Shown: positions 18,844 through 39,101 of the stretch, one piece after another
Position numbering within the stretch: the stretch's first letter is position 1
How the letters are laid out: each line of letters begins with the position of its first letter
NCBI RefSeq assembly: GCF_038446955.1
Contig: NZ_CP151803.1
Coordinates: 5,642,001 to 5,706,000, forward strand
Origin: Pedobacter sp. FW305-3-2-15-E-R2A2
GTDB lineage: Bacteria; Bacteroidota; Bacteroidia; Sphingobacteriales; Sphingobacteriaceae
Length of the DNA stretch: 64,000 bases
Direction of reading: 5' to 3'
Made by a program: the position numbers and the translations under genes
Notes under the pieces: generated by a model
What the model saw: the letters and a program-made list of their open reading frames with translations, nothing else
Database searches by the model: none
What the model was told of the DNA's origin: nothing

Positions 18844-19989
18844 TTACGCTCCTTCTTCTCCTCCGTTTTTCATTTTCATCAGGATCGCATAGGCGTTCTT
18901 CATGACAATATTCTTTGCTGGCAGTGGCGATTTGATCTCTGTAAAACCCTCACTTAAAATACCAGGCTCCACGCCGATCATTTTGTACTGATGGTTTCCT
19001 TCGTCGGTAAACACATAAAACTTGTTCTCCCATTTTACGACCGCTTCGTCAGGAACCGCAGTAACACTGGCATGGTTCAGCTTTACCGCAGCGTTCAGGT
19101 ACGTTCCCGGTAATAACTCTTTGCCGTAGTTTTCCAGGTCACAATGTACGCTGATACTTCTGTCGTCTCCAATAGCAGGACTGATCAGGTGAATGGTGGC
19201 CAGGTACTTTTTATCCGGGTTTCTATTCGTGGTACATACAATTTTCTGTCCTTCTTTAAGGCTGGACGCATCATTCTCTAAAACGGTCAGGTTTACATGA
19301 AGTTTTTTCGGATTGATGAGTTCAAACAAAACATCCGTTGCATTTACATATTTGCCTGTATTCACATTTACTTTGGTTACATGACCATCAATAGGGGAAT
19401 AAATCTGAATCCTGCGGGAAATATTACCTGCCGTTAAAGTAAGCGGGTTTAAGCCGATCAGTTGTAACTGCTCCGCTAATGATTTAACCATGATCTTTTG
19501 CTGGTTGAAATCACTCTCTGTTTGCTGGAAAAGCTTATCACTCGTTGCTTTTGTGGCATTCAGTCCTTTTTGTCTGATGTAGTCTGATTCTGCAAACTTC
19601 AGTTTATTTTTTGCCATCAGGTAATCCTGCTGCAACTGTACATATTGCTGGTCTTCGATCGTTGCCAGGACTGCCCCTTTGCGAACCATCATTCCCGGAA
19701 TAAGGTTCGTTTTTCTGATATAGCCTCCTAATGGAATGCTGATAGAAAAGACATTTTCTGGTGGTACCTCTACCAACCCATTTACGTTGAGCACGCTGCT
19801 CATTCCTCTTTTTTCAGGCAGACCTGTCGTAATTCCTGCAATTTTTGTCTGCTCAGCAGTAAATTGAACCAGGTGAGTTTCCTGTTTAACTGCGGGATTC
19901 GGTGTTTCTTTGGCCGCTTCTTTTTCTGCGTTTGTACAGGACATAAAAAGGAGGAAAAGAGAGAGGCTTAATAGGATGTTTGTCTTCAT
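18844..19989 (-). CDS. czcB: RND efflux periplasmic adaptor (CzcB-like lipoprotein)
   Basis: The start chosen is the ATG at 19989, which gives a lipoprotein signal with lipobox LLFMSC, 13 bp behind the permease gene; the frame is open further upstream but that part overlaps the permease gene. The 381-residue protein has the membrane-fusion-protein order: beta-barrel/lipoyl halves (NVFSISIPLGGYIRKTNLIPG and IYSPIDGHVTKVNVNTGKYV) around a helical hairpin (QQDYLMAKNKLKFAESDYIR), then a second barrel domain. It should link the inner-membrane CzcA-like pump to its outer-membrane channel. It is the last gene of the efflux operon. Confidence 0.93.
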   Translation of the reverse strand: MKTNILLSLSLFLLFMSCTNAEKEAAKETPNPAVKQETHLVQFTAEQTKIAGITTGLPEKRGMSSVLNVNGLVEVPPENVFSISIPLGGYIRKTNLIPGMMVRKGAVLATIEDQQYVQLQQDYLMAKNKLKFAESDYIRQKGLNATKATSDKLFQQTESDFNQQKIMVKSLAEQLQLIGLNPLTLTAGNISRRIQIYSPIDGHVTKVNVNTGKYVNATDVLFELINPKKLHVNLTVLENDASSLKEGQKIVCTTNRNPDKKYLATIHLISPAIGDDRSISVHCDLENYGKELLPGTYLNAAVKLNHASVTAVPDEAVVKWENKFYVFTDEGNHQYKMIGVEPGILSEGFTEIKSPLPAKNIVMKNAYAILMKMKNGGEEGA

Positions 19990-20002
19990 GATGATGTTCT
20001 TT

Positions 20003-24888: not shown

Positions 24889-26502
24889 TTATTTTTTTAG
24901 TTCAAATACCGTCATCAATGCGGCATGATCTGAAGGAAACATGACCGGATGATAGTCAATGACCCTGGATTCGATAGGGTTAAGTCCTTTCCCTTTATAA
25001 TAAATGAAATCAATTCTATCCCTTAGTCCATATAAGTCCGTTGTTGGTGCCGCCCTTACTCCCCAGGTCAGTCCTGGGTTTGATAAGGGATTGACATGGA
25101 GCTTTCGATAACTATCTGTAAATCCTGCTTTGAGCATTTCCAGACTTTCAGGCCATTCCACGACCAGTCCGTAGTGAAGGGACTTGGTTTCTTCCGTCCA
25201 GTCCAGGTGAGATCCCATATTGAAATCACCGGCCATGATGACCGGTAAATGGTCGGTGTTTTTTAGATAGGGATCAATCTTTTTCAGGATCTCTTTTATT
25301 TCTGCATGCCGGGTTGGCCCCTCTTCTTTGATCAGGGCCTGCGCATTTTTTTTCTCTTGTCTGATGCTGGCATCTACATCCGGTAAGTAATCCAGCCAGG
25401 TATTCAAATAGATCAGCTTTTTGTCCGGACTCAATTTTAAAACTACCCCACCAAAATTGGAGGGACGGAACTCCCTGATCGTTTCCTCGATCGGATAACG
25501 GCTCATGATGGAAAGATTGGCACTGATCAGGTAAAAATAATAACCCAGCGAATCGGCAATCACTGCTCCTGAGCCATACGTTTCTATGAGTCCTACGATA
25601 TCAGGATTTGTGGATTTGATCGTTTCAATCAGGCGTTCCAATCCTACGGCCTGTCCATACCGGTGGCCGCCATGCCAGATGTTCCAGGAAAAGACTTTCA
25701 GATGAGTGGGAGCAGCTGTTTCTTCTTTGATCACATTTGGAAAGAATTGTAAATATTGCCTTTGCACTTCGGCAGAAGAGAGGGCACGGTTCCAGACTTT
25801 TACTTCATCTATAAACCCGTTAAAAGCATTCCATTGGGCATTCGATCCGTATTCCCATTTCTCATCCGAGCCCCCAATGACTGTGGAGTATTTGCTTTCC
25901 AAACTACCAAGGCCCGGTGTATTGTAGATGGCGATATTTTTTCCGTCCAGGTAGATCCAGGCTTCATGCGTTTCTCTTTTGACTGTAAAGAGGAGCTGAT
26001 GCCAGTTGCCATCATTGATCCTCTGCCTTTCCGCAGTTGGTTTATAGTCATAACGTTGTTTTCCGTCATTTAACAGCAGTGCCCAGGCTCCGTTTTCCTG
26101 CGTATAAATCTGCCAGCCTATCGTAGCTCCGTCCTCTGCGATCTTATTTCCCATGATTGGCGTTCCCATCTTTGCATTTGCTATGGTTTTTACCCAGATC
26201 TGCACCGAGAAGGAGGCCTTTTCTGTGAATTCAGGCAAGGTTCCTTTGTCCAGCTTAACAGGCCTTCTCAACATCGCATTTGCAGAAAGGTCCAAGGCTC
26301 TTCCGCTCAAGCCTTTCGCATATTGTGATTGCTGCAAATCAACCGCATAATAGGCACTGTCTTTAGGAGTAATGTGTTCCTTAAAACTAAAATTATCAAA
26401 GTTCAATTGATACCCGGGTTCCTGCGCGTTTGCCTCCGTCTGCCCAAGGATTAAGGCGAGGATCAATACCATCTTTAGTTTAATAAAGTTTTTGAATGCC
26501 AT
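24889..26502 (-). CDS. Secreted LamG-endonuclease/exonuclease/phosphatase protein
   Basis: Start taken at the ATG at 26502, which gives a signal peptide (KNFIKLKMVLILALILGQTEANAQ) and no overlap with the gene before it. The 537-residue protein joins an N-terminal LamG/concanavalin-like lectin domain (about residues 40-255; GLSGRALDLSA, FSVQIWVKT, FNGFIDEVKVWNRALSSAEV) to an endonuclease/exonuclease/phosphatase domain (about 270-537). Catalytic signatures are SWNIWHGG, GLIET, VIMAGDFNMG and FPSDHAALM. This superfamily cleaves phosphodiesters in nucleic acids, sphingomyelin and inositol phosphates. It is last in the phosphonate cluster, so a phosphonate ester is a possible substrate; that is inference. 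Confidence 0.88.
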   Translation of the reverse strand: MAFKNFIKLKMVLILALILGQTEANAQEPGYQLNFDNFSFKEHITPKDSAYYAVDLQQSQYAKGLSGRALDLSANAMLRRPVKLDKGTLPEFTEKASFSVQIWVKTIANAKMGTPIMGNKIAEDGATIGWQIYTQENGAWALLLNDGKQRYDYKPTAERQRINDGNWHQLLFTVKRETHEAWIYLDGKNIAIYNTPGLGSLESKYSTVIGGSDEKWEYGSNAQWNAFNGFIDEVKVWNRALSSAEVQRQYLQFFPNVIKEETAAPTHLKVFSWNIWHGGHRYGQAVGLERLIETIKSTNPDIVGLIETYGSGAVIADSLGYYFYLISANLSIMSRYPIEETIREFRPSNFGGVVLKLSPDKKLIYLNTWLDYLPDVDASIRQEKKNAQALIKEEGPTRHAEIKEILKKIDPYLKNTDHLPVIMAGDFNMGSHLDWTEETKSLHYGLVVEWPESLEMLKAGFTDSYRKLHVNPLSNPGLTWGVRAAPTTDLYGLRDRIDFIYYKGKGLNPIESRVIDYHPVMFPSDHAALMTVFELKK

Positions 26503-26509
26503 TATCCCT

Positions 26510-27595
26510 TTATTTAAGTACACTTTCAATTGCTGCTCCGATCGGGTTCACAGAACTGAATTCAAATCCAAGCAATTTTACCATTGTTTTTGCCAGCTGA
26601 TCCTGATAAATCTGTCCCTCATTTTTCATTTCTCCTTTGGGCTTAATTCCTGGCCCCATTGCAATCAACCAGGTATCATTGGCATGTGGAATGCGGGCTC
26701 CATGGCTGGTCCATTGCTGACCTTCTCCTCTGCCATGATCCGGCATAATCATTAAGGTTGTTTTGCCTTTGTAAAATGGATCGCTTTGCAGGTAATTCCA
26801 TAAGCTGCCTATCATGGCATCCACATTTCTGGCAGCATCAAGGTAAAAATCATATTTATCTTCGTGTCCGTACTCATCAGTATCTGCAAGATCCAGGTAC
26901 AATATTTTAGGATGTCTGGCTTTGAGGTAAGATTTCGCCAATGCATAAGTTGTGGCATCCAGGCGTTCTTCATGGCCCCATATTTCAGGTTCATAATGCT
27001 GGATTTCATTGGCCAGACTTTCTCCCTCACTGAGATTTTTCCCGCTGAGGTTCTCTCCCGGGAGATTCACCAGCAAGCCATTACGGTTTCTGTTGATGAT
27101 CCTGCCAACAGCACCCCAGGAGGCAAAACTGACCACTTTACCTTTATATCCTTTCTGCTCATCCATAAATTCCAGGATGTTCCTGTTCTCATTGTCCGGA
27201 TGTCCGTTCGACTTCACTTTAGGATCCGCATAACCGGTCAGGTTTTCACTGCGACCAGGATAGGAGATCCAGTAAGGATTTTTAACATTTACTTTATTTC
27301 CCAAATCCCTGTTTCCATAAATCTGTCCGTTCTTTACAATAGTCGTCCATAAGAAGGGCATTAAACTCGTTCTTCTTTGCTGCAGATCATCAGACCAGTA
27401 CTTTTTAAACCGTGCTGCGGAATCCTGAGTATTGAATTTTTTATCGAGCAACAATTCTATTTCTGCGCCCTGGAAGACCTCTCTCCACCTTAAGCCATCG
27501 ATGGAGATAATGATCATGTTCCCATCGGGAGCCTTACTTTGTGCAAAAGTTCCCTTTACGCAGAGGAGTAACAGGAAGAATAGTATATTTTTCAT
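26510..27595 (-). CDS. Secreted alkaline-phosphatase-superfamily protein
   Basis: The 361-residue protein has a signal peptide (KNILFFLLLLCVKGTFAQ). It shows the metal sites of the alkaline phosphatase / nucleotide pyrophosphatase-phosphodiesterase superfamily: MIIISIDGLRW near the N-terminus, the middle D-x-x-x-H in LADTDEYGHED, and the C-terminal MIMPDHGRGEG...SHGARIPH. The usual Ser/Thr nucleophile is probably in WISYPGRSE. It should hydrolyse a phosphate or phosphonate ester in the periplasm or at the surface. It lies 6 bp behind the DUF5690 gene and 7 bp before the LamG-phosphodiesterase gene, so the two exported hydrolases are likely co-translated. Confidence 0.85.
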   Translation of the reverse strand: MKNILFFLLLLCVKGTFAQSKAPDGNMIIISIDGLRWREVFQGAEIELLLDKKFNTQDSAARFKKYWSDDLQQRRTSLMPFLWTTIVKNGQIYGNRDLGNKVNVKNPYWISYPGRSENLTGYADPKVKSNGHPDNENRNILEFMDEQKGYKGKVVSFASWGAVGRIINRNRNGLLVNLPGENLSGKNLSEGESLANEIQHYEPEIWGHEERLDATTYALAKSYLKARHPKILYLDLADTDEYGHEDKYDFYLDAARNVDAMIGSLWNYLQSDPFYKGKTTLMIMPDHGRGEGQQWTSHGARIPHANDTWLIAMGPGIKPKGEMKNEGQIYQDQLAKTMVKLLGFEFSSVNPIGAAIESVLK

Positions 27596-27601
27596 ATCTA
27601 A

Positions 27602-28912
27602 TTATTTATTTAATGGTATCCGGTCCAGGATCCCGGTAATTGGTCCCTTAACCCCTATTTTCCGGTTAAAGAAGATGGCAGATAAAATGAGGAGCAGCAT
27701 ACAGATTACGGTGAGGAAATAGCTGAACTGCATGAGTACCTTTGCCCAGCTTAAATCCTTCATAAAAAACTCCTTGTAAAGCAACAGGCCAACACTGCCC
27801 AGGTAACCGGCAGAATCGCACATGTACACAAAGAACCCCGCATTGGCCTTGATCTTAAATAAAGCGATCATCCGTTCGAACAGCACTACCTGAATCGGTG
27901 TGTAGGCTAAAAACAAACCCATTCCCACCAGGAGCATCCAAAAAAAGGGGCTCAATAGCTGAAGGTGAAAAAGCAAGGTACTTCCGCCACTGATCATCAG
28001 CCCTAATGCCACCAGATATTGGGTTCCCCAAAAGCCTTTGATGTTGTTTCGAATTAGCGAAAGGCATCCTATGGCAATCAATACGATCACTCCGCTAATG
28101 GCTTCGGTGAGCGAAAAGACGGTTTTATCCCAATGTGGGGCAATCTCATTCCAGATCTCTACGGAGAAATTATCCCGAAAGTCCCGCATCGTGGTCAACA
28201 TGGTATAGACCAATCCAATTCCCAATATCGCCGGACCGTATTCTTTTAAAGCCATGCGTTTATCTTCGGCCGTCATAGGAAGGCGTTCTACCCTCAATAA
28301 TTTATCCGTCTCATCAGGTTCGGGAATCACGGATAACATCCATACAAATAAGAGGAAGGCGGGTAAAAAGAGCAGGCCCATGACACAAGGCATCCAGAAT
28401 TCATTAATGAAGGGGAGCCATTCATGTACCATAAAATAAATGGTTTTGATGATTCCTGAAGAGACAATAAGACTGATGCTCATTCCCATGGCCAGCATCT
28501 CGGTGAAACGTCTTCCTTCGAGGTAGCTAAAAATAATGCCCCAGACCATACCTAAAGGCAAACCGTTCAGAAACAAGAAGAAAAAGTTATAAGGGTAAGG
28601 TACCAGACCGAAGAGCAGCAGGGAAACTTCTGAAAAGAGGATCAGGCAGATGATGAGCTTTTTTCTTCCCGAGGCTTTGAGCTCAGAGATCACTTTGATG
28701 CCTAAAAATTTAGAGACCATATACCCAAATACCTGGGCAATGATTAATACGGCCTTATAATCCAGATCCCAAAGGCTCATTCCAGCATAGGTCCCACTGG
28801 TAAAAGGCTTCCTGAAGGCATACATGCAGAAATAAGTGCCAAAGGCAGCAATCATACACCAGAACACAAAGAATACTTTGGAATGGCTCAGCAAATGTTT
28901 AAGTCGGTTCAT
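27602..28912 (-). CDS. DUF5690-type MFS transporter
   Basis: A 436-residue membrane protein with about 12 helices. It begins with a short basic stretch and FWCMIAAFGTYFCMYAFRKP, a start I associate with the DUF5690 branch of MFS transporters, which resembles organophosphate antiporters of the GlpT/UhpT kind (the MYAFRKPF signature is close to their YxxRxN-type first helix). It is within the phosphonate cluster, 15 bp behind the FAD oxidase gene and 6 bp before the phosphatase gene. It is therefore the best candidate for bringing the aminophosphonate across the inner membrane. Family assignment is from memory; substrate is inferred from context. Confidence 0.8.
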   Translation of the reverse strand: MNRLKHLLSHSKVFFVFWCMIAAFGTYFCMYAFRKPFTSGTYAGMSLWDLDYKAVLIIAQVFGYMVSKFLGIKVISELKASGRKKLIICLILFSEVSLLLFGLVPYPYNFFFLFLNGLPLGMVWGIIFSYLEGRRFTEMLAMGMSISLIVSSGIIKTIYFMVHEWLPFINEFWMPCVMGLLFLPAFLLFVWMLSVIPEPDETDKLLRVERLPMTAEDKRMALKEYGPAILGIGLVYTMLTTMRDFRDNFSVEIWNEIAPHWDKTVFSLTEAISGVIVLIAIGCLSLIRNNIKGFWGTQYLVALGLMISGGSTLLFHLQLLSPFFWMLLVGMGLFLAYTPIQVVLFERMIALFKIKANAGFFVYMCDSAGYLGSVGLLLYKEFFMKDLSWAKVLMQFSYFLTVICMLLLILSAIFFNRKIGVKGPITGILDRIPLNK

Positions 28913-28927
28913 TCTGATGGTTTAAAT

Positions 28928-30166
28928 TTAGCCACTTACTTTTGTTGATCTTGCACGCGCACATCTTTCCAGCCATTCGGGACTGAAGGGATCGACTTCA
29001 CCAAAGCGCTGAAGGTCAAAAGCAGAAAAGTCATAAGGGTTTGCCTTTCCTGCTGCAAGTTCGGCAAATGCCAGTCCTACTCCCCCGCTCACGGAGATTC
29101 CTGCACCCACACATCCGGTGGCCATCAACAAGTGATTTACACCGGGAGCCACGCCCATAGACAGGTTATTATCCGGCGTATATCCGGAAAATCCAGCTAC
29201 ATAATACTTCATCCCGATATCGTAAACCTTTGGAAAGAAACGGGCGAGCCTGTCGATCACTTCTGAAAGATCCTGAACTCCTTTATCCGGGCTAAAAGAA
29301 AAATCATTGACATTCCGGGGAATCAGATCAGCAGAAACACTCAAGGAGTTTCGTTCTCTGATGCCAAACAGCAGACTTCCACCTTCCGGGCGTGCATAGG
29401 CCTGGGCATCCGGCAACAAGACAATAGGTGAATTGACCGGAAAAATATCATTTTTTTCTGTGATCCAATATTGACTTCTGGTAGGCGCCATTGGCAAACT
29501 TACGCCAGCTTCACGCGCAAATTTTGGTGCCCATGCACCGGAGGCTACGATGGTAGTTCCTGCAATGATGTTTCCTTCTTTGGTATGAACACCAAGGACA
29601 TCATTCCCCTCCATAATTAAATTTAAGGCCTCCAGACCCTGGATAAATTCTGCCCCCTGTAATTTTGCGCATCTGGAGAAGAAGGTTCCCAACAGATAGG
29701 GATCACAATAAGCTTCATCAGGCATATAGCCAATGCGCAATGCCTCATCTGTCTTTAGCCATGGCGACATTTTATGCGCTTCCTCCGGAGAGATATAATG
29801 AGCCGGCTGATTAAATTCAGCCGCAATTTCCATCAATTCTTTCAGTTCTTTTTCCCTCGCTTCGGATGCTGCCAGGTGAATCACACCGCTGAATTTCATG
29901 TCCATAGATTCGCCCAGGATTTTCTCCATTTCGGCAACCACCTGATAAGTTTCCAGAGAAAGCGGGATAAAAGGTTTTTTAGCCCTGATTTTGGTGACCA
30001 ATGCTGCAGCATGACTCGTTGCAGCATTGCAAAGTTCATTTCGGTCGAGAACGATAATTTTCTTTCCCGGGTTGTTCCGGGTATAATAATAGGCGATGGC
30101 ACAACCAAAGACACCTCCCCCAATGATCACCGCATCGGCGCTCTTATATTGTTTGTTCATACTCAA
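28928..30166 (-). CDS. FAD-dependent amine oxidoreductase (DAO family)
   Basis: The 412-residue cytoplasmic protein has an N-terminal Rossmann FAD site (AVIIGGGVFGCAIAYY, then IIVLDRNELCNAATSHAA) and a C-terminal segment typical of the DAO family (GFSGYTPDNNLSMGVAPG, then LMATGCVGAGISVSGGVGLAFAE). DAO relatives oxidise secondary or primary amines such as sarcosine, dimethylglycine or glycine. It sits 24 bp behind another FAD oxidase gene in the phosphonate cluster. A role in oxidising or N-demethylating an aminoethylphosphonate is plausible but not shown by any residue I can point to. Confidence 0.87.
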   Translation of the reverse strand: MSMNKQYKSADAVIIGGGVFGCAIAYYYTRNNPGKKIIVLDRNELCNAATSHAAALVTKIRAKKPFIPLSLETYQVVAEMEKILGESMDMKFSGVIHLAASEAREKELKELMEIAAEFNQPAHYISPEEAHKMSPWLKTDEALRIGYMPDEAYCDPYLLGTFFSRCAKLQGAEFIQGLEALNLIMEGNDVLGVHTKEGNIIAGTTIVASGAWAPKFAREAGVSLPMAPTRSQYWITEKNDIFPVNSPIVLLPDAQAYARPEGGSLLFGIRERNSLSVSADLIPRNVNDFSFSPDKGVQDLSEVIDRLARFFPKVYDIGMKYYVAGFSGYTPDNNLSMGVAPGVNHLLMATGCVGAGISVSGGVGLAFAELAAGKANPYDFSAFDLQRFGEVDPFSPEWLERCARARSTKVSG

Positions 30167-30190
30167 TTTGGTTTTAAAGGTCTTGTTGGT

Positions 30191-31351
30191 TTACTGGTAT
30201 ATCTTTTTAATGCTGGCTTCGGCATATCCCGCAGCGGAGGTCATTCCCTTGCCGCCTATGGCCGTTCGGATATGTATCCGCTCGTCTATATCGTATTCAA
30301 CGATTGGCTTCGTCTTGTGCTGGGGATAAAATCCCGCCCAGGACGCTGAAATTTTATGCACCTCAAAATTCACGATGCGCTGTGCTTCATGGATCATGAG
30401 TTCATTGACCTGATGGTTGATTTTGAAGCCCAGATCATCCGTATGGTTGACTTCCGCATATTCATGCGAATCTCCAATAATGATAGATCCGTCTGTTCCT
30501 TTTTTGAACAGGATATGAATGCCCCATTTCCTCAGCTCTTCCTGATCTTCCGGATTCGAAAGCTTTTTAAAGGAAAGACATTCCTGAAAAGATTCGTACC
30601 TCCTGATGGATAGACCAGTCAGGATATTTCCTTCCAGCTGTACTTCCGGCATAGGGATGGTTTTCATCATTTGCAGCTTACAAAGGGTAATTCCACTTTC
30701 TTTAAACAGGTCGGCAAAGAGTAGTTTAAATTCTCCTCCGTTGCAGATCACCACTTTCTCTGCATGGATGGCTTCTCCCGCAGCACTTACTATTCTGACC
30801 TGATCAGCGACCACCTGACACTCCACAATTGCAGTGGCAGGTTTATAGCTGAGGTTGGGGTATTTTCCCAAGGCCCAGGCAATCAGCCGGTGAATCATCT
30901 GATCCGGCTCCACACTGACTTCCTGCGGGAAGAAAAGTCCTCCTTTACAGTATTCCTTATTAAGAGCTGGATATTTGGCAATACAATCTCCGGCAGATAA
31001 CAACACAGATGCATAATCCGCCTGATCCATTTTTGTTTTTAATTCCAGGATCAGTTGCAATTCCTCTTTATCTGAAGGGACATAGAGTGTACCGTTATTG
31101 CGGACACTGATGTCAAACTCCTGCTGAATTTCTTTATACAGTTCAGTTGCGCGCAAAGCGTAAGGAAACCAGTCGGAGGCCATTCCGGAAGGCACCACCT
31201 GACCAAAATTTCTGACGGTAGCGTTTACCGGATATTGGTCTTTTTCCGTCAGCAATACCTTCTTCCCCATCCGGGCAGCATGTATCGCATGAAAGGTTCC
31301 GAGTACCCCGGAGCCGACCACTATTAAATCATACATCGGTGTTTTCATCAT
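30191..31351 (-). CDS. TIGR03364-type FAD-dependent oxidoreductase, phosphonate-associated
   Basis: The 386-residue DAO-fold protein begins MYDLIVVGSGVLGTFHAIHAARMGKKVLLTE-like sequence: FAD motif GSGVLG, then TVRNFGQVVPSG, which is characteristic of the TIGR03364 group. That group is known for lying next to phosphonatase-type genes. The C-terminal IRTAIGGKGMTSAAGYAEA closes the FAD site. The expected chemistry is oxidation of the amino carbon of a 2-aminoethylphosphonate, possibly N-methylated, to phosphonoacetaldehyde, which would replace the missing transaminase PhnW. It is 6 bp behind phnY, so the order of genes follows the order of the pathway in reverse. Confidence 0.85.
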   Translation of the reverse strand: MMKTPMYDLIVVGSGVLGTFHAIHAARMGKKVLLTEKDQYPVNATVRNFGQVVPSGMASDWFPYALRATELYKEIQQEFDISVRNNGTLYVPSDKEELQLILELKTKMDQADYASVLLSAGDCIAKYPALNKEYCKGGLFFPQEVSVEPDQMIHRLIAWALGKYPNLSYKPATAIVECQVVADQVRIVSAAGEAIHAEKVVICNGGEFKLLFADLFKESGITLCKLQMMKTIPMPEVQLEGNILTGLSIRRYESFQECLSFKKLSNPEDQEELRKWGIHILFKKGTDGSIIIGDSHEYAEVNHTDDLGFKINHQVNELMIHEAQRIVNFEVHKISASWAGFYPQHKTKPIVEYDIDERIHIRTAIGGKGMTSAAGYAEASIKKIYQ

Positions 31352-31357
31352 TTTATT

Positions 31358-32803
31358 TTACCAGGGCATAGAAAATGTTTTCACATAAGAGAAGCATTTG
31401 ATCGCTTCCACCACTCCTTCTTTGATGCCAAGTCCGGAATCTTTGATCCCTCCAAAGGGAGAATTTTCTATCCGGTATCCTGGCACTTCATTGATGTTTA
31501 CTGTTCCCACTTTCAGTTCTTTCACAAAGCGGATGGCATGGTCCATATTATTCGTGACCACGCCGGAGGACAGGCCAAAAGCAGTAGAATTAGATAAGGC
31601 GATGGCATCATCGATGTCGGTGAAAGTCAGGATTGGCGCTAAGGGCCCAAAGGACTCCTGCACGACCATTTGTGCATCTCTGGGCACATTCACAATAACC
31701 GCAGGTTCCAGCAAAGCGCCATTGCGTTTGCCACCGAACAGTACTTTTGCACCCTGGGCTACTGCCATGGCCAGCACCTTTTCCAAATAAATGGCGGAGG
31801 CTTCATCGATGACCGTACCTACCCTGGTTTCCGGATCTGCAGGATCACCGCAGATGTATTCTTTTGTTTTTTCAATGAATCGTCTGGTAAACTCATCTGC
31901 GATACTTTCATGAACCAGAATTCTTTTTACGGCTGTACAGCGTTGTCCGGAATTCCGGTAAGCCCCTTCGGCAGCCAGACCAACTGCAAGATCAAGATCT
32001 GCATCTTCCAGAACAATCAGGGGATCATTACCACCAAGTTCCAGGATTACTTTTTTATAGCCCGCAGTAGCTGCGATTTTTTTTCCTACCGCTACACTTC
32101 CCGTAAAGGAGACCAAATCGACTTCCGGAGCCTGGATCAAGACTTCGGCCACTTCTTTTGTCTCCCCAAGCAATACGCTCAGCATGTATTCCGGTAAGCC
32201 CGCTTCGTACAATAACTCCACGAAACGGATTGCCGTTAGCGGTGTTTTTTCTGAAGGCTTCAGGATCACGGGAGTTCCGGCCGCCAATGCCGGTGCGATT
32301 TTATGTGCCACCTGATTTAGCGGATGATTGAAGGGCGTGATGGCTACTGCAAGTTTTAAGGGCTCGCGAAGGGTAAATATTTTACGTTGTTTTCCATTGG
32401 GGGAGATGTCACAGGAATAGATTTGCCCGTCGTCTTTCAGGCATTCAATTGACGCAAACAGCAACACATCGTGTGCTCTTCCAATTTCATAATTCGCTTC
32501 CCTGATGCACAAACCGGATTCCGCAGTAATCAGTTGAGCGAATTCTTCTTTCCTAAGCAAGAGCAAAGCCCTGGCTTTGTCCAGAATGCTATACCTTTCG
32601 TAACGGCTTAGAACGGCCCCTCCTTTCAGCGCAATGGCGATTGCATGTTGGGTATCCGATTGACCGGCCATTTCTACAGTGCCTACCAACCGTCCATCGT
32701 AGGGGCTATTTACCGCTAACTGTTTTCCGGAAGAAACGGGTTGGGCAGCAACAAGGGAAGCTAATCTAATGATATTATCAGTGGCGGTTAATTCTTCTTT
32801 CAT
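31358..32803 (-). CDS. phnY: Phosphonoacetaldehyde dehydrogenase
   Basis: The 481-residue aldehyde dehydrogenase has the family glutamate in ILELGGNDPLIVLEDADLDL and the catalytic cysteine in NSGQRCTAVKRILVHE; the GQRCTAVKR form is the one found in phosphonoacetaldehyde dehydrogenases. The N-term NAD site (TPFNHPLNQVAHKIAPALAAG) is complete. The reaction is phosphonoacetaldehyde plus NAD to phosphonoacetate. It lies between the phosphonoacetate hydrolase gene (53 bp) and the TIGR03364 oxidase (6 bp). Assignment from sequence alone would be only moderate; the adjacent phnA makes it strong. Confidence 0.9.
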   Translation of the reverse strand: MKEELTATDNIIRLASLVAAQPVSSGKQLAVNSPYDGRLVGTVEMAGQSDTQHAIAIALKGGAVLSRYERYSILDKARALLLLRKEEFAQLITAESGLCIREANYEIGRAHDVLLFASIECLKDDGQIYSCDISPNGKQRKIFTLREPLKLAVAITPFNHPLNQVAHKIAPALAAGTPVILKPSEKTPLTAIRFVELLYEAGLPEYMLSVLLGETKEVAEVLIQAPEVDLVSFTGSVAVGKKIAATAGYKKVILELGGNDPLIVLEDADLDLAVGLAAEGAYRNSGQRCTAVKRILVHESIADEFTRRFIEKTKEYICGDPADPETRVGTVIDEASAIYLEKVLAMAVAQGAKVLFGGKRNGALLEPAVIVNVPRDAQMVVQESFGPLAPILTFTDIDDAIALSNSTAFGLSSGVVTNNMDHAIRFVKELKVGTVNINEVPGYRIENSPFGGIKDSGLGIKEGVVEAIKCFSYVKTFSMPW

Positions 32804-32856
32804 ATACTTAATTTAAATTGGATGCAGATCCCCCCTGCAATGGTGTCTGCTAAATA

Positions 32857-34098
32857 TTAATGAGTACCATTTACGGTAAAGTCAAATACATCGAAATTGC
32901 GGGGATCTCCCTGTGCCTTCATTTTGTAGGTTGCATTGAGGGCATGAGAAACCACTAAAGGAACCATTTCTTCATACCTTCCACCATGGGAACGGAGTGT
33001 TCCATCGAGGGCTTTCAGGTCATGATCAGCAGGCGTTTTTCCGACTACCACATCCCTTGCGGATAACACAAAAAGATCGCCCGTTCGATCTGCAGGTTGT
33101 TCCAGCAGACGGCAACCTTTTTCTTTATTATACACCTCTGTAATGCCTGGTTGTGCCGCCAGCCATTGTTCTACTTCATTGATATCTGAATTGTTATTTA
33201 CATAGACCAGCACATAAGATCCGAGTGCACCATGATGTTTCACATAGGGATCGGTAATCGGGCAAATCACCCGGAAGCCTGCACCAAATTTTTCGGTCAG
33301 CATGGTTTCGATAAACAAGACGTTTGGAGCGCCATCGGCCTTCACTTTTGCATTCATACCATGATCTGCTGTAGCGCCGATAATGGCTCCCATTTCCAGC
33401 ATTTTACCTATTTCCACATCCTGAGCTTCATAAAAAGCAAGGGACTCTTCCGTATCCGGAGCATAGGTATGCTGCATATAATCTGTTAGGGAGAGGTATA
33501 AGAAATCGGCCATGCCGTTTTTAATCAATGCCACACCTGCACGCAATACAAACAGGCTGGCTTCGGCACTATAGATGGCCGGAGTTTTATGACCGATCAC
33601 CGTTTCTGCATTTTCGATGCCATGGGTCTCCAATGTTGCCTGATCTGCTTTTTCTGCGGAGAAAGCAATGCCTTTCAACTGATAAGAAAGGATGTCGCGC
33701 AATTTCTCCTTTGCAGTCACCACAGCCACCTTACGACCAGCGTTTGCTGCGGCAGCCAATAAAGTTTCTGCCCTAAGGTATTCAGAGGAGTTCATCATCA
33801 CTTCCTGATCTTTTTTAACATCATAAAAGAAATTACCACAAATGCCATGAACGGCCGGACTAACCCCGGTAACGATCGAAGAGTTGTTGACATTGGTAAA
33901 AGAAGGCAAAGCACCACGGACCATCCCTCTATAACCCTGCAACACCATTTTTTTAAGGTTCGGCATCCTGTCATGCGCCATGGTCATATCCAGATATTCA
34001 TCTGCAGAACCATCCATGCAAATCACGACGATTGGTTTTGCAGGTGGGTTGTAATCTATGCCGTTGACTGAAAAAGGGGTTGTTGAGATATTGTTCAT
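32857..34098 (-). CDS. phnA: Phosphonoacetate hydrolase
   Basis: The 413-residue cytoplasmic enzyme has the length and motifs of PhnA, a zinc-dependent member of the alkaline phosphatase superfamily that splits phosphonoacetate into acetate and phosphate. Metal and nucleophile signatures are VVICMDGSADEYL, the Thr in LPSFTNVNNSSIVTG, LSLTDYMQHTYAPDTEES, GATADHGMNAK and TLRSHGGRYEEMVPL. It has no signal peptide. It is first of the enzyme genes behind susCD, separated from susD by 113 bp that include a hairpin with a T-run. Confidence 0.93.
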   Translation of the reverse strand: MNNISTTPFSVNGIDYNPPAKPIVVICMDGSADEYLDMTMAHDRMPNLKKMVLQGYRGMVRGALPSFTNVNNSSIVTGVSPAVHGICGNFFYDVKKDQEVMMNSSEYLRAETLLAAAANAGRKVAVVTAKEKLRDILSYQLKGIAFSAEKADQATLETHGIENAETVIGHKTPAIYSAEASLFVLRAGVALIKNGMADFLYLSLTDYMQHTYAPDTEESLAFYEAQDVEIGKMLEMGAIIGATADHGMNAKVKADGAPNVLFIETMLTEKFGAGFRVICPITDPYVKHHGALGSYVLVYVNNNSDINEVEQWLAAQPGITEVYNKEKGCRLLEQPADRTGDLFVLSARDVVVGKTPADHDLKALDGTLRSHGGRYEEMVPLVVSHALNATYKMKAQGDPRNFDVFDFTVNGTH

Positions 34099-34163
34099 TT
34101 CTGTTTTATTTTATACTGATGATTATATTTTAATTTACGATTATGTTTTCATTAAAAAGGGAA

Positions 34164-34183
34164 GGACCGTGACCAAACGGTCC
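34164..34183 (-). terminator. Hairpin with T-run between susD and phnA, possible attenuator
   Basis: Arms GGACCGT and ACGGTCC surround a 6-base loop. On the minus strand the stem is followed by TTCCCTTTTT, so it looks like an intrinsic terminator placed inside the cluster. Partial termination here would make more SusCD than enzymes. Confidence 0.6.
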
Positions 34184-34211
34184 AAACCCAACGTACTAAC
34201 CTAACTTCTTT

Positions 34212-35708
34212 TTATTTTAACAGCCACATGACCTGGTCTCTATCGTCTATTTCTGTTCCAAACTGAGCGCGTAATGCTGCCCTGTAATTTTCTGTATTGT
34301 CTGTATTTTCAGCGGATGGATATGCCCACCTAACCGGAAGTTTAGTGACACTGTTTACCCCTGAAAACTTAAATTCAGGGATTCCGGTACGACGGTTCTG
34401 GAACCAGGCTTCCGCTCCTGAATTTTCGGCCAGCGACAGGTACATTTGCTCATGAATAAGTTTTAAGCCATCGGGACCTCCGACATAAGGGGCTTTGACC
34501 GTCAGGTAATCTCCAATTGGCGCATTATAGAAAGCCATAGAAGCGCTGACACCATTGTCATAATGTGTCTTTGCATGCTCGGTAATCCAACCTCTGTTTG
34601 CCGCTTCTGCAATGTTTAATTCCTGCTCAGAGTAACCCAGCAAAATGGAAGGTTGTCCAACGAAATTCCAGAACCTTTTTTCGTTTGGTTTAGAAAGTTC
34701 TCCATTATTTTTCCTTTGGTTATTGGCAATGGCCGTAACTGCTGCGCTTGCTCCGGTATAAGAAGCAAAATCAGCTCTTACCGCAGTTTCATTTGTTGGG
34801 TTGGCTGCCAGTGCTTTCGGTGTAGGATCGGCCACCACCTGCAACCTTGGATCCAGGTATTTTTTAAGCAGATCGATATAAGTGTCCACATACAAAACCC
34901 CTTCCCTTAAGATACCGGTATTCGGGTTATAAGTCCCTCTAAAACCATCTTCATCTCTATGGTTGAGCTGCATGTTGTCGGCCAGACTGCTAAACAAGGG
35001 ATATTTCGCCGGGTTTTGAACGATATTTTGAAAGCGGCCTTTTACATTCAGCTCTGCATCCCCTTCTTTTTTACTCAAAAGGATAAGCATTCTGATCGTA
35101 TAGGCATTGATGGCTTTTTGCCATTTCTTAAGGTCTCCGTTAAAATAAATATCTCCGTCAACGGAAGCACCCGGATTGGCCAAGATGAAAGCTCCCAGTT
35201 CGTTGTTCGATTCGTCCAGCCATTTTAAACACTGAATGAATACCGACTTTTGAGTATCATATTTAGGCTTTGGAAATTTTTCACCCTGTAAAGCTTCTGA
35301 TAGTGGAATGTCTCCCATCTGCCTCGTCATGAGGCTATAATAGTAGGCTTTTAAAAATTTAGAAAGAATGACATATACAGGTGTGTTTGCCTTTTCTGCT
35401 TCCTGAATCATTTTTTGTATATTTCTCAAAGTACTATTCGCTGCCGAAGATGCCCCAAAATAAAAGGTTCCTCCTCCATATTTATAGCTTAACGGCCCCG
35501 AATCTGCGGTAGCGAAAGTATGGTATTGCGGATCCTGATAAGCATCTGAAAAGGCGCTGACCGGACCTGGTGTCACTGCAGTAAACAATAAACTCGGAGG
35601 CACAGAAGCCGGATTATTTGGATTTTCTCTTAACTCATCATATTTTAAACAACTGCTTGTCGTTACCACCAGTAAGCATAAACCAAGCATTCTATATATA
35701 GTTTTCAT
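34212..35708 (-). CDS. SusD-like outer-membrane lipoprotein of the phosphonate cluster
   Basis: The 498-residue protein has a lipoprotein signal ending at C20 (LLVVTTSSC) followed by LKYDELRENPNNPASVPPSLL, the start typical of the SusD-like_2 branch of SusD/RagB proteins. Helical repeat segments and a C-terminal NRRTGIPEFKFSGV stretch also fit. SusD proteins bind ligand at the cell surface as the lid of the SusC channel. It lies 5 bp behind susC. The branch differs from the SusD proteins of PUL1 and PUL2, as does its susC partner, which suits a different ligand. Confidence 0.93.
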   Translation of the reverse strand: MKTIYRMLGLCLLVVTTSSCLKYDELRENPNNPASVPPSLLFTAVTPGPVSAFSDAYQDPQYHTFATADSGPLSYKYGGGTFYFGASSAANSTLRNIQKMIQEAEKANTPVYVILSKFLKAYYYSLMTRQMGDIPLSEALQGEKFPKPKYDTQKSVFIQCLKWLDESNNELGAFILANPGASVDGDIYFNGDLKKWQKAINAYTIRMLILLSKKEGDAELNVKGRFQNIVQNPAKYPLFSSLADNMQLNHRDEDGFRGTYNPNTGILREGVLYVDTYIDLLKKYLDPRLQVVADPTPKALAANPTNETAVRADFASYTGASAAVTAIANNQRKNNGELSKPNEKRFWNFVGQPSILLGYSEQELNIAEAANRGWITEHAKTHYDNGVSASMAFYNAPIGDYLTVKAPYVGGPDGLKLIHEQMYLSLAENSGAEAWFQNRRTGIPEFKFSGVNSVTKLPVRWAYPSAENTDNTENYRAALRAQFGTEIDDRDQVMWLLK

Positions 35709-35713
35709 TCGTA

Positions 35714-38700
35714 TTAAAATTTAAGATTGATATTGAAACCGTATGTTCTTTGTGCAGGTTGCTGCAGATCCGTATCTCCGGTACTCATGCTGTAAGTATC
35801 GAGGTCGCCGAAAGTTTTGTCTTTAGTCCAGTAATATAAATTCCGGCCAACAAAGGACAGAGAAGCCCCCTTTAAAAACTTGTTTTTCAGGACTGCGGCT
35901 GGTACATTATAGGTCAGTACGACCTCTCTCAGCTTGATAAAAGTCTTATCAATCACATTGTTTTGCCATGCCGCCATGTATTGTTTTGCCCAGGTCTGAT
36001 AATCTACTTTATAATCATTTGGCGCAAAGACCCTGGTATCTGAAAGCATTTTTCCATCCGGATCATACTTTGCCTCTCCGCTTACAATTTTTACCCCGGG
36101 GATGAGCATTGTTCTGGGATCAGTGCCATTTGCATAAGCAATGTTCGAGAGTTCTCTTTCGGGCGCAATGGCATCAGGATGAGAGCCTGATCTCCAAAGG
36201 TCCCGTTCAAATCTATCGTAGGTAATTCCACCAAATCTACCATCCACTAAAAAGGAAAGAGAGATATTTTTATAGCTGAATGTATTGTTCATACTCACAG
36301 AGAAACTTGTTTTTTGATTTCCGATATTCACATCATAGTCGGTAATCCTCGGCAATCCGTCCGCATTCATAATGAGCTTTCCATCCGGAGATTTTTCCCA
36401 ATCCGAATACCAATAATCATCCAGTCGCCCGCCAACAGGCGTTCTTCCTTCTTTTAGCTGCGGACTTCCATCTGCAAGCGCTGGCAAAGATTTCAGGTAA
36501 TCTTTCCCCCCATCGACATTGATCAGGGCTATCCAGGAGAAATCATCGGTTCTAACCGGAGTGGCATTGAAAGAGAAATCAAAACCTCTTCTTTGTGTGG
36601 TCCTTCCATTCAACCTGATTCCCGTATATCCGGAGGTTTGAGAAAAAATCTGCCTAAAGATCTGAGGCCCATAATTATTACTATAATAAGAGAAGTCAAA
36701 GCCCAATCTATCGTTCAGGAATCTTGCTTCTACTCCATATTCATAAGTCGTATTAAACTCTGGTTTCAGGTTTGGATTATCGATAATACCCGGATAATAC
36801 GCCACAGGAAGATTTCTGTTTCTACTACCGGTAGTATAAGAATTCCGGGCATTATATACATCGTTATCTTCTCCAATTTTGTCACTACCTACTTTCGCAT
36901 AAGCAGCTCTCAGTTTTAAGAAACTAACCGCCTTTGGTAAATGAAGCATATCGCTAACCACTGCACTTAAAGATAAGGAAGGGTAAAAGAAGGTAGAATT
37001 TTTTGCAGGCAAGGTAGATGATTTATCCACCCTTCCGGTCATGCCCAGGAAGATCTGATTTTTGTAGGCCAGGTCAATAGAGGAATAAGCACTGTAAATT
37101 CCTTTTTCATCTTTATAGCTCGTAGGCAAAACTTTATCTGTCGAGTTGTCCAGTTTAAAGATCCCCGGAACAATCAGTTTAGTGGTAGCAGCATGTGCTT
37201 CTCTGTTGCTTTTATAGAGTTGATTTCCACCGAGGGTAGCGTTCACATTAAAATTATCATTGAAAAAGTTATCATGATATTTAAGGAGGAAGTCCGTATT
37301 TGACTCCAGCATTCCAAATTCATTATGCCTGTATCTACCCCCACGATCAGAGATGTCATAGTCATAGATATCCATAGAAATCTCTTCATCCTTGGTCAAG
37401 GAATAGGTATTTAAACTCGTCCTGACATGAGCATCAAATTTATCACTGATTTTGTAGTTCAATTTCAGGAAACCCAGGACATCGTTTTTAGTATATGGCC
37501 TTTTCCACTCATTGGCCAGCATATATGGATTATTGTACCTCCAGTTCTCCACAAAGCGTTGTTTAATGCCTTCTTTACCCGGAACCCAATAATCTTTAAA
37601 ATCTCTGATGTCAAAATGAGCTCCACCCCAGATACTCAGGTTATAAATGGGTGAATGTGGTCCATAATTATTTCTCGGCAGATTACTGGCATACTCGTAA
37701 GTATGTTGTAATGATCCATCTACAGACAGTTTATCTGATAAGTTTAAATTTCCATTTAAGCGGAAAGTATTGATATTTAGTTTAGCGCCGGGTACCGATG
37801 CTTTTGAATATTTATAGGTATCGGAAAGGGTAACACCACCGCTTTCACCTCTGCTTTGCAGGGAGAAATTATTTGAGGTCACCAGTCCGGTTTCCATAAA
37901 GTTCCCCAGGTTATCTTCTCCTCTGGAAAGCCATGGTGTAGGGATTCTTTTTCCTGTCGCCGCATCGATTGGTGAATCATATTGCGGCAATAGCCGGCCA
38001 TCAAATTTGGGCCCCCATATGGAATAATCGAAGTCATTTATTCCTCCGCCTCCGGGACCTCCGGTACCAAACGCATACTCACCTGCATCACCGGGACCAT
38101 ATTGTGTTTGTGCCTTAGGGATCCTGATGAATCCACCCTGAAAGGTGGTAGAAGAATTGAACGACATACTCGTTCCTTTAGCGGCGTTACTGCTGTTTTT
38201 AAGACTGATCTGTACGGCACCATTCAATCCTAAGGAGCCATATAAAGCAGAAGCTGCAGCTCCTTTTAAAACGGAAATGTTTTCAATATCATCAGAACTG
38301 ATGTTCCACATATCTGTGGTGGTACTTGGCACACCATCAATTACGATTAAGGGTTTTTTACCTCTTAAATACAATTTAGGATCAGAAAAGAAATCACTGC
38401 TGTTGGTTACCGTCAGACCGGCGACTTTCCCTGTCAGGGATTCCACCACATTTGGGGAAATGGCTTTCTGCAAAGCGTCTCCTTTCACCTCCTGAACCGC
38501 ATAACCCAATCGCTTTTTCTCTTTTTTAATTCCCAGGGCGGTGACTACCACCTCATTTAAGTTGGCCTGATTGGGTTCAAGTTTCACGTCGATCTGAGCT
38601 TGCGTACCAATTGCAATTTCTTTTGGCTGATAGCCGATAAAACTAAATACTAAAGTTGCATTTGCCGGTACTGCTAAATTAAATTTCCCGTCGGTGTTGG

Positions 38701-38875
38701 TGGTACCACCGTTCTTCCTTCCCTTTACCTTGATGGATACGCCAGGCATCGGTTGATTGTTTTCGTCGGTAACTGTTCCGGTGACCGTACTTTGTGCGTA
38801 AGTCGCGCTTAACGCCAACAGCCAAACTAACATCGTCAGCAGGCAGGCTCTTTTTGCTGTGTAGAAAGATTTCAT
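35714..38875 (-). CDS. SusC/RagA TonB-dependent transporter of the phosphonate cluster
   Basis: The 1053-residue receptor has a signal peptide, a carboxypeptidase-regulatory-like domain (about residues 28-105, VTGTVTDENNQPMPGVSIKV), a plug with LYLRGKKPLIVIDGVPS and a barrel ending in YGFNINLKF. It is the first gene of the phosphonate cluster. No HTCS, ECF sigma or anti-sigma gene is adjacent, unlike PUL1 and PUL2. A near-consensus promoter lies 46 bp upstream. With its SusD partner it should import the intact or partly digested phosphonate-bearing compound into the periplasm. Confidence 0.95.
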   Translation of the reverse strand: MKSFYTAKRACLLTMLVWLLALSATYAQSTVTGTVTDENNQPMPGVSIKVKGRKNGGTTNTDGKFNLAVPANATLVFSFIGYQPKEIAIGTQAQIDVKLEPNQANLNEVVVTALGIKKEKKRLGYAVQEVKGDALQKAISPNVVESLTGKVAGLTVTNSSDFFSDPKLYLRGKKPLIVIDGVPSTTTDMWNISSDDIENISVLKGAAASALYGSLGLNGAVQISLKNSSNAAKGTSMSFNSSTTFQGGFIRIPKAQTQYGPGDAGEYAFGTGGPGGGGINDFDYSIWGPKFDGRLLPQYDSPIDAATGKRIPTPWLSRGEDNLGNFMETGLVTSNNFSLQSRGESGGVTLSDTYKYSKASVPGAKLNINTFRLNGNLNLSDKLSVDGSLQHTYEYASNLPRNNYGPHSPIYNLSIWGGAHFDIRDFKDYWVPGKEGIKQRFVENWRYNNPYMLANEWKRPYTKNDVLGFLKLNYKISDKFDAHVRTSLNTYSLTKDEEISMDIYDYDISDRGGRYRHNEFGMLESNTDFLLKYHDNFFNDNFNVNATLGGNQLYKSNREAHAATTKLIVPGIFKLDNSTDKVLPTSYKDEKGIYSAYSSIDLAYKNQIFLGMTGRVDKSSTLPAKNSTFFYPSLSLSAVVSDMLHLPKAVSFLKLRAAYAKVGSDKIGEDNDVYNARNSYTTGSRNRNLPVAYYPGIIDNPNLKPEFNTTYEYGVEARFLNDRLGFDFSYYSNNYGPQIFRQIFSQTSGYTGIRLNGRTTQRRGFDFSFNATPVRTDDFSWIALINVDGGKDYLKSLPALADGSPQLKEGRTPVGGRLDDYWYSDWEKSPDGKLIMNADGLPRITDYDVNIGNQKTSFSVSMNNTFSYKNISLSFLVDGRFGGITYDRFERDLWRSGSHPDAIAPERELSNIAYANGTDPRTMLIPGVKIVSGEAKYDPDGKMLSDTRVFAPNDYKVDYQTWAKQYMAAWQNNVIDKTFIKLREVVLTYNVPAAVLKNKFLKGASLSFVGRNLYYWTKDKTFGDLDTYSMSTGDTDLQQPAQRTYGFNINLKF

Positions 38876-38907
38876 ATGTTCAAAAGTTTAATTTGGCTAG
38901 ACTTATG

Positions 38908-39101
38908 TTTAGTATTTATACAAATATAGAATAGTATTTGTAAAAACAATGTTAAGTAATGCTAAACTTTTAAAATATAATCTCAAGAAAGGATTTAACC
39001 AAAAATCACATAACTAATTGTACAATAATTAACTACACCAATAATTCAGAATAAAATGGATTAACACAAATTAAACACACATCGTTTATTTAGTATTTAT
39101 A
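38908..39101. repeat. Pair of 13-bp direct repeats in the susC upstream region
   Basis: TTTAGTATTTATA occurs at 38908-38920 and 39089-39101. The first copy touches the -7 element of the susC promoter. The DNA is very AT-rich, so chance is a real possibility; otherwise these could be regulator sites for the phosphonate cluster. The 322 bp between susC and the CAP gene (38876-39197) contain only these, the promoter and the terminator hairpin. Confidence 0.35.
38921..38949 (-). promoter_or_regulatory. Promoter of the phosphonate cluster
   Basis: On the minus strand TTG (38949-38947), an 18-base spacer and TATATTTG (38928-38921) give a near-perfect Bacteroidota promoter. The -7 element ends 45 bp before the susC start codon, leaving a short leader. 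There is no second strong -7 match nearby. Confidence 0.6.

Follow-up and report, generated by a model that had tools for sequence, protein, structure and literature searches.

A Pedobacter operon that sets a SusCD pair beside genes of predicted aminophosphonate catabolism

What is a SusC/SusD outer-membrane pair doing in one operon with enzymes of the carbon-phosphorus (C-P) bond? The question arises in a 64,000-nucleotide stretch of DNA from Pedobacter sp. FW305-3-2-15-E-R2A2, positions 5642001-5706000 of a 7.59 Mb single-contig genome, which we call the window and whose coordinates are used below. Nine consecutive open reading frames (ORFs) on its minus strand, 24889-38875, read susC, susD, phnA, phnY, two flavin adenine dinucleotide (FAD) oxidase genes, FAD1 and FAD2, a DUF5690 gene, and the genes of two exported hydrolases, AlkP2 and LamG-EEP. 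In polysaccharide utilisation loci, of which Sus is the archetype, SusCD and exported hydrolases stand in one operon, and the present operon is like them in this, tandem SusC-SusD pair included. It is unlike them in that its hydrolases are of phosphoesterase type, not glycoside hydrolases, and its cytoplasmic part would break a C-P bond; carbohydrate-active enzymes are lacking, and none of the nine genes matches a Pfam family of glycoside hydrolases or lyases. We hold it moderately probable that this is a SusCD-type organophosphonate utilisation locus, which would take up ester-linked 2-aminoethylphosphonate (AEP) or N-methyl-AEP and pass it to PbfD/PbfC-PhnY-PhnA catabolism.

The nine-gene operon and its predicted C-P route

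A first-pass annotation, made from the letters of the window, described this same-strand run of nine genes, and the ORFs and the Pfam and NCBIfam profile matches bear out both the run and the gene names. The susD-phnA spacer, at 113 bp, is the largest; no other gap exceeds 53 bp, and AlkP2 and LamG-EEP, which close the run, overlap by 20 bp. The identical set in identical order is present in four more genomes (L028, L029 of P. steynii DSM 19110, L030, and, from a search of the genus, L262), so the arrangement is a conserved one and not due to chance; accidental adjacency is rejected by this order together with a reverse search, described below, that rises above background. A PhnA search puts Pedobacter sp. 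KBW06 and P. steynii (PhnA 99% identical) closest among named relatives. Conservation of all nine genes, proposed in the annotation as a check, has its limit in a survey of 80 PhnA loci (one query gave 97 confirmed relatives, of which the best 80 were kept, leaning toward close relatives), where the complete set occurs in just 3/80, L028-L030. In this and the other locus comparisons below, most neighbour genes were named by BLAST to representatives, family models having been run on single representatives.

PhnA, a phosphonoacetate hydrolase of 413 aa at 32857-34098, scores 495 bits against TIGR02335 (equivalog cut-off 408). It aligns with the solved PhnA 1ei6 at 389 bits across residues 9-410, the two having in common the stretches DG, SFTN, TDYxQH, TADHG, and RSHGG, and 3szy is also among its closest solved matches. 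PhnY, a phosphonoacetaldehyde dehydrogenase of 481 aa at 31358-32803, scores 675 bits against TIGR03250 (equivalog cut-off 636), and its best solved match, at 501 bits, is 4i3t, which we take to be the S. meliloti PhnY; the second best is at 310, a margin of about 190 bits. Both assignments made in the first pass therefore hold, by cut-off and by solved enzyme. FAD1 (386 aa, 30191-31351) scores 362 bits against TIGR03364 (cut-off 285), a hypothetical-equivalog model whose annotation is carried by the characterised PbfD1 of A. baumannii, according to the parts of PMC10590968 consulted, and we designate it a putative PbfD-type aminophosphonate oxidase.

FAD2 (412 aa, 28928-30166) belongs to DAO/PF01266 and is over no specific cut-off in the NCBIfam profile scan. 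A search of 72,556 plasmids matched 338 records, with the top rank going to a protein of Azospirillum sp. B510 (38% identity over 98%, 209 bits; next-highest score among the matches listed, 174 bits), and directly upstream of that gene lie matches to PhnW and to a PhnX-type HAD protein. A phnW-phnX cluster is the setting reported for PbfC (PMC10590968), and in the survey FAD2 is present in 23/80 PhnA loci, 13 of which also have PhnW. By way of the Azospirillum gene and its context, rather than by comparison with accession WP_012976454 itself, FAD2 is predicted to be a PbfC-type N-methyl-AEP oxidoreductase. PbfC is reported to favour N-methyl-AEP about 400-fold over AEP, while PbfD enzymes take both (PMC10590968), so N-methyl-AEP is a likely substrate of the operon besides AEP. 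The second FAD amine oxidase of the first-pass annotation is thus present, and its identity is refined.

By eye, the N-termini of PhnA, PhnY, FAD1, and FAD2 have no signal-peptide-like stretch. Family-model searches of the window's genome find no PhnW, PhnX, or PepM (phosphoenolpyruvate mutase) over cut-off, so phosphonoacetaldehyde would need an oxidase as its source, and PhnW/PhnX is rejected as the route of this genome. Very probably, then, the catabolic genes carry AEP and N-methyl-AEP through phosphonoacetaldehyde and phosphonoacetate to acetate and phosphate: FAD1 would oxidise both compounds to phosphonoacetaldehyde, FAD2 would do the same for N-methyl-AEP, PhnY would yield phosphonoacetate, and PhnA would split it, all of these being activities predicted from family. 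The annotation had proposed just such a full route of amine oxidation, PhnY, and PhnA, and the TIGR03364, PhnA, and PhnY scores over cut-off support it. A weak PhnX match in the genome (125 bits) pointed to a second phosphonate locus (L244), 42 kb past the window's end at 5748154-5751328 of the contig, where a TIGR03364 oxidase (341 bits), a DUF5690 gene, and a PhnX-like HAD hydrolase form a one-strand run; no SusCD match falls within the 19 kb stretch examined there.

The SusC clade and the cassettes beside it

SusC (1053 aa, 35714-38875) is a TonB-dependent outer-membrane transporter with 493 bits against TIGR04056 (cut-off 368), and SusD (498 aa, 34212-35708) is a surface lipoprotein by its match to PF12771 (205 bits) and, read by eye, a lipobox-like TSSC near the N-terminus. 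The question is whether such a pair accompanies phosphonate genes elsewhere. PhnA itself is patchy, being over cut-off in 3/41 relatives (the window's genome counted) and in 8/395 phylum genomes. SusC and/or SusD of the window's clusters are found in 32/80 PhnA loci, another SusCD pair in 7, and neither in 41; for the 60 loci with full flanks, meaning at least 9.5 kb on each side, the numbers are 30, 6, and 24. SusCD-free here means without both SusCD clusters counted, and other TonB-type genes could be present. SusC, SusD, PhnA, PhnY, DUF5690, and either PhnW or FAD1 occur jointly in 29/80 loci, 15 of them with AlkP2 as well. The coupling of SusCD to phosphonate catabolism that the first-pass annotation had proposed recurs in Sphingobacteriaceae, in Chitinophagaceae, and in one Flavobacteriaceae locus.

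The amine step varies among these loci. PhnW is found in 30/80, FAD1 in 20/80, and both in 3, and by Fisher test, uncorrected for phylogeny, the two avoid each other (p 0.018 over 80 loci, 0.0014 with full flanks). On the PhnA tree, exclusion is not seen in four independent pairs (same way 1.1, other way 0.5), so mutual exclusion is rejected as too strong and our claim is limited to this, that both amine-removing gene kinds occur with the same partners. In 23/80 loci the stretch examined has PhnA and PhnY but lacks PhnW, FAD1, and FAD2 alike; phosphonoacetaldehyde may be the substrate there, or the amine step may be encoded elsewhere.

In a tree of 59 SusC sequences, 31/32 PhnA-linked rows fall in one clade with a starred support of 99, separate from the 27 paralogues sampled in the window's genome. 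A profile of this clade was run in reverse against 395 phylum genomes and matches at E <=1e-200 in 53. The loci taken from it are 19 of the 21 best non-window places plus one paralogue, two places in G430 being omitted by choice, and the counts that follow exclude L203, which is the same stretch as L056. Of the resulting loci without PhnA, 12/18 have other phosphonate genes (Phn-HD, PhnX-like, or TIGR03364-type FAD1, with DUF5690 in part) and 15/18 have an esterase of the listed clusters. The controls, 20 other SusC loci from the window's genome, have one phosphonate core match and no listed esterase; the lone match, to PhnY in L237, is kept in the count and is probably a generic aldehyde dehydrogenase. 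Fisher p values are 8e-5 for phosphonate genes and 5e-8 for esterases, figures that ignore relatedness and use one control genome, with five of the 18 loci coming from one genus and six of the 20 controls being the nearest paralogues of the window's SusC. Representatives of the alternative genes were held against family cut-offs: Phn-HD passes 3/3 and TIGR03364 2/2, while three of four PhnX-like representatives are just under the TIGR03351 cut-off of 219 (200-208 bits) and one is over (233).

Within the genus, the SusC profile matches at E <=1e-300 in 68/145 genomes. From more than 80 listed places, 40 loci spanning the range of scores were chosen, of which L273, L285, and L294 measure just 7-11 kb; core phosphonate genes are present in 17 of the 40 and an esterase in 16. 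Without five repeats of L028-L031 and L038 these become 12/35 and 11/35, and the core count drops to 10/35 if L265 and L271, which have DUF5690 as their sole core gene, are also excluded. A 99-row SusC tree (FastTree, with a long-branch warning) puts 77 rows in the window's clade: 35 are PhnA-linked, 21 have other phosphonate genes, 4 have an esterase only, and 17 have neither. Considering the 46 clade rows found without the use of PhnA, 25 are phosphonate-linked and 21 are not, which makes the clade strongly enriched next to phosphonate genes without being confined to them. Dropping L263 and L264, repeats of L031 and L038, leaves 23/44 linked, or 21/44 without L265 and L271. The link between SusCD and phosphonate genes is hence modular, not obligatory; that the family is exclusively phosphonate-linked is rejected as too strong, given the unlinked rows in the clade. 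L265 illustrates the modularity, with a SusC 79% identical to that of the window together with SusD, DUF5690, AlkP2, and LamG-EEP, while the 19 kb stretch examined contains neither phnA nor phnY. We read it as an uptake-and-release part that may stay while the C-P cassette changes or leaves the place.

Different cassettes, then, lie beside one SusC clade. Related SusCD pairs across Bacteroidota adjoin genes of PbfD or PhnW for the predicted amine step, and of PhnY-PhnA or PhnX-like/Phn-HD for the predicted C-P step. A wider claim, which we put forward tentatively and at somewhat less than an even chance, is that the clade serves mainly for ester-linked aminophosphonates, either phosphonolipids or phosphonoglycans, across the phylum. 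It would be a phosphonate counterpart of polysaccharide utilisation loci in which one part handles uptake and release and the C-P cassette comes in at least two interchangeable forms, PhnY-PhnA and PhnX-like with Phn-HD.

Several results weigh against our assignment of the operon as a SusCD-type organophosphonate utilisation locus. Both SusCD clusters are missing from 24/60 full-flank PhnA loci, and of the 8 phylum-sample genomes that carry PhnA, 5 lack a SusC match at E 1e-200 and three are among the 53. Of the 46 rows found independently of PhnA, the 21 without a nearby phosphonate gene include 17 also without a listed esterase, ten of these in one subclade, and among the 25 linked rows, L265 and L271 owe that status to DUF5690 alone. 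Neither PhnW nor FAD1 is found in 33/80 PhnA loci. The independent-pairs tests on the PhnA tree, that of PhnW and FAD1 included, had 3 or 4 starred-branch pairs to draw on, and none is significant. FAD2 shares 38% identity with its Azospirillum match, and two further points concern the hydrolases, as given below. Independent movement of the SusCD and phn genes, which the first-pass annotation had named beforehand as evidence against its claim, is therefore seen in part, in the unlinked PhnA loci and SusC rows just counted.

Exported hydrolases and the imported molecule

What would the SusCD pair import? Two exported hydrolases bear on this. AlkP2 (361 aa, 26510-27595; PF01663/PF01676) is an esterase of the alkaline phosphatase superfamily. 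In 18 aligned sequences, the window's and 17/21 cluster members, D33, D240, H244, D286, H287, and S111 are invariant, which is a metal-site pattern of the superfamily plus a serine, and the nucleophile position reads S-x-P-G-R/Y in most rows. The predicted structure, with a model confidence (pLDDT) of 85, matches PafA at Z 27.5, the sphingomyelinase ENPP7 at 24.0, and ENPP6 at 23.3. Its fold also agrees with the phosphonate monoester hydrolase 2w8s (Z 22.8), PafA and ENPP being higher and sulfatases about equal. This is the first of the two points, as AlkP2 is equally like phosphatases, nucleotide phosphodiesterases, sulfatases, and phosphonate monoester hydrolases, and the comparison does not separate them. 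LamG-EEP (546 aa, 24889-26529; PF13385, PF03372) has a lectin-like domain and a hydrolase of endonuclease/exonuclease/phosphatase fold, and its true start is probably downstream of the TTG. Its GDFN, DRIDF, and SDH stretches are invariant in 4 aligned sequences, the window's included, and it adjoins AlkP2 at every locus where found. The second point is that it is present in just 4/80 PhnA loci and that its structure model, made from 4 sequences, failed (pLDDT 33). Both hydrolases have signal-peptide-like N-termini by eye, and both have weak matches only in sequence searches of the Protein Data Bank (PDB).

Listed esterases are found in 31/36 SusCD-bearing against 5/24 SusCD-free PhnA loci with full flanks (p 5e-7, uncorrected for relatedness). 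Three independent esterase-SusCD pairs on starred branches of the PhnA tree agree in direction (1.6 to 0.0), with significance out of reach, and AlkP2 alone gives a mixed direction (1.3 to 0.9). The DUF5690 protein (436 aa, 27602-28912; PF18943, 525 bits) is found in 33/36 SusCD-bearing and 8/24 SusCD-free PhnA loci with full flanks. It is present in 43/80 PhnA loci overall, in 0/6 of those with an alternative MFS protein, c18, and beside TIGR03364 and PhnX-like genes in the second phosphonate locus of the genome. We propose it as a candidate inner-membrane transporter of (amino)phosphonates.

From this anatomy the steps ahead of the catabolic route can be sketched. SusD and SusC would capture a molecule bearing AEP or N-methyl-AEP at the surface and pass it over the outer membrane, AlkP2 and LamG-EEP would cleave the phosphonate ester and release the aminophosphonate, and DUF5690 would move it over the inner membrane. 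The layout likewise suggests import of an esterified molecule in place of free AEP. The first-pass annotation went further, to a large or lipid-linked substrate; that is plausible given two exported hydrolases, which fit it, and is not established, as their specificity is unreadable and the independent esterase-SusCD pairs are too few. We regard a macromolecular or lipid-linked substrate as about an even chance.

The strongest alternative is that the locus is a general phosphate-utilisation (PUS) locus, in which SusCD and the esterases scavenge ordinary phosphomono- and diesters, with the phosphonate cassette as a passenger supplying the same pool of phosphate. PusCD with phosphomono- and diesterases has been described in Lidbury 2021 (PMC8115612), the AlkP2 model is closest to PafA and ENPP, and the four esterase-only rows of the SusC clade have no phosphonate gene. 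A passenger would not be expected to be swapped for another phosphonate cassette, yet 12/18 SusC loci without PhnA have alternative phosphonate genes, and the control loci stand at 0/20 for esterases and 1/20 for core genes. We rate this alternative as unlikely.

Less well placed is the idea that the target is a glycan-borne phosphonate, SusCD being a glycan importer in the usual sense. An AEP-modified capsule is described in Bacteroides fragilis (PMC6697681, seen in part), LamG is a lectin-like fold, and in five Mucilaginibacter loci (L033, L039-L042) a gene of the GH29 fucosidase family, scanned in one representative, immediately precedes phnA in the same orientation, which hints at a glycan carrier there. 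The window's operon has no glycoside hydrolase of its own, the GH2 gene at 42173-44245 being separated from it by one plus-strand gene and three others, and we consider a glycan importer improbable here. Quite improbable, too, is a SusCD that scavenges free AEP or N-methyl-AEP at high affinity while the esterases act on other organic phosphorus, for although DUF5690, a candidate importer of free compounds, is in 33/39 SusCD-bearing PhnA loci and 5/36 with full flanks lack any listed esterase, 31/36 have one, and SusCD transporters are known for oligomers too big for porins, which free AEP should pass.

Known systems and neighbouring features

With ester-linked aminophosphonate uptake as the preferred reading, we compare the locus with what is in print. 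The first-pass annotation knew of no described locus of this make-up, which was too strong. Lidbury 2021 places PusCD complexes of plant-associated Flavobacterium next to phosphoesterases and inner-membrane organophosphorus transporters, and one sentence has them co-localised with phosphonate-degrading enzymes too (PMC8115612), so the concept of a SusCD-phosphonate link is already published; a word search of the main text finds no phn genes. The defining set of PusCD, namely SusCD, phosphoesterases, and an organophosphorus transporter, has putative counterparts here in AlkP2, LamG-EEP, and DUF5690, whose substrates and transport role are predicted. Induction at low phosphate was measured in Flavobacterium (PMC8115612), whereas the window's locus is known from its genes; the make-up of PhnY-PhnA with PbfC and PbfD, the wider distribution, and the exchange of cassettes belong to loci of the window's type and were not met in the parts of PMC8115612 consulted.

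The catabolic route has its own precedent. PbfD-PhnY-PhnA is the published fourth AEP pathway, with PbfD2 of Luteolibacter luteus (Zangelmi et al. 2023, PMC10590968), and the window's predicted route is like it: an oxidative deamination yields phosphonoacetaldehyde, PhnY and PhnA take over from there, and PhnW plays no part. It is unlike it in adding a PbfC-type FAD2, SusCD, exported esterases, and DUF5690. PMC10590968 mentions PbfC and PbfD in the FCB group, and a word search of its main text finds neither 'Bacteroid' nor 'TonB'. Within Pedobacter, PhnA was reported in P. glucosidilyticus DD6b, where, unlike in the window, no complete AEP pathway was found (PMC4642753, seen in part), and a word search of that report gives no mention of TonB or Sus proteins. 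No mention of DUF5690 was found in the literature searched for it and for three TIGR families; nor were this gene make-up, its distribution, and its cassette exchange, in a search that lay outside subscription papers and supplements.

Most putative phosphonate biosynthetic clusters are predicted to yield cell-wall phosphonoglycans and phosphonolipids (PMC6697681), from which much natural AEP should be ester-linked. A SusCD clade that accompanies several C-P pathways offers a concrete entry to its uptake, and if our reading is true, it would extend the SusCD model to phosphonates and let DUF5690, along with many unnamed SusCD pairs, be labelled by function. To our knowledge, the release and import of ester-linked AEP by bacteria have been little studied.

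Two putative control elements were read from the operon. Upstream of susC, at 38921-38949 on the minus strand, TTG-N18-TATATTTG is promoter-like by the Bacteroidota consensus. In the susD-phnA gap, at 34164-34183 on the same strand, a consensus scan finds a terminator-like hairpin with a 7-pair stem (5 GC) and then a T-rich tail; it is possibly an attenuator that sets different levels for the uptake and catabolic genes. An XRE-cupin regulator (cluster c3) is found in 44/80 PhnA loci, often immediately before susC or phnA, and is neither in the maps of L028-L030 nor among the scanned genes upstream of the window's susC.

A different SusC/SusD pair lies near phnA in L036, L039, L040, and L042, and on the other strand in L043, L044, and L047. 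Its representative SusC has an STN domain, FecR or ECF genes are nearby in some loci, and the pair looks as if it were an exchanged importer type. Past the LamG-EEP end of the window's operon, a 1454-aa ORF at 20003-24367 encodes a CusA/CzcA-type resistance-nodulation-division (RND) permease fused to a C-terminal outer-membrane efflux (OEP) domain. It is followed by an HlyD-type gene at 18844-20076, and a DUF1016/YhcG-type PDDEXK nuclease gene lies on the plus strand at 17629-18723.

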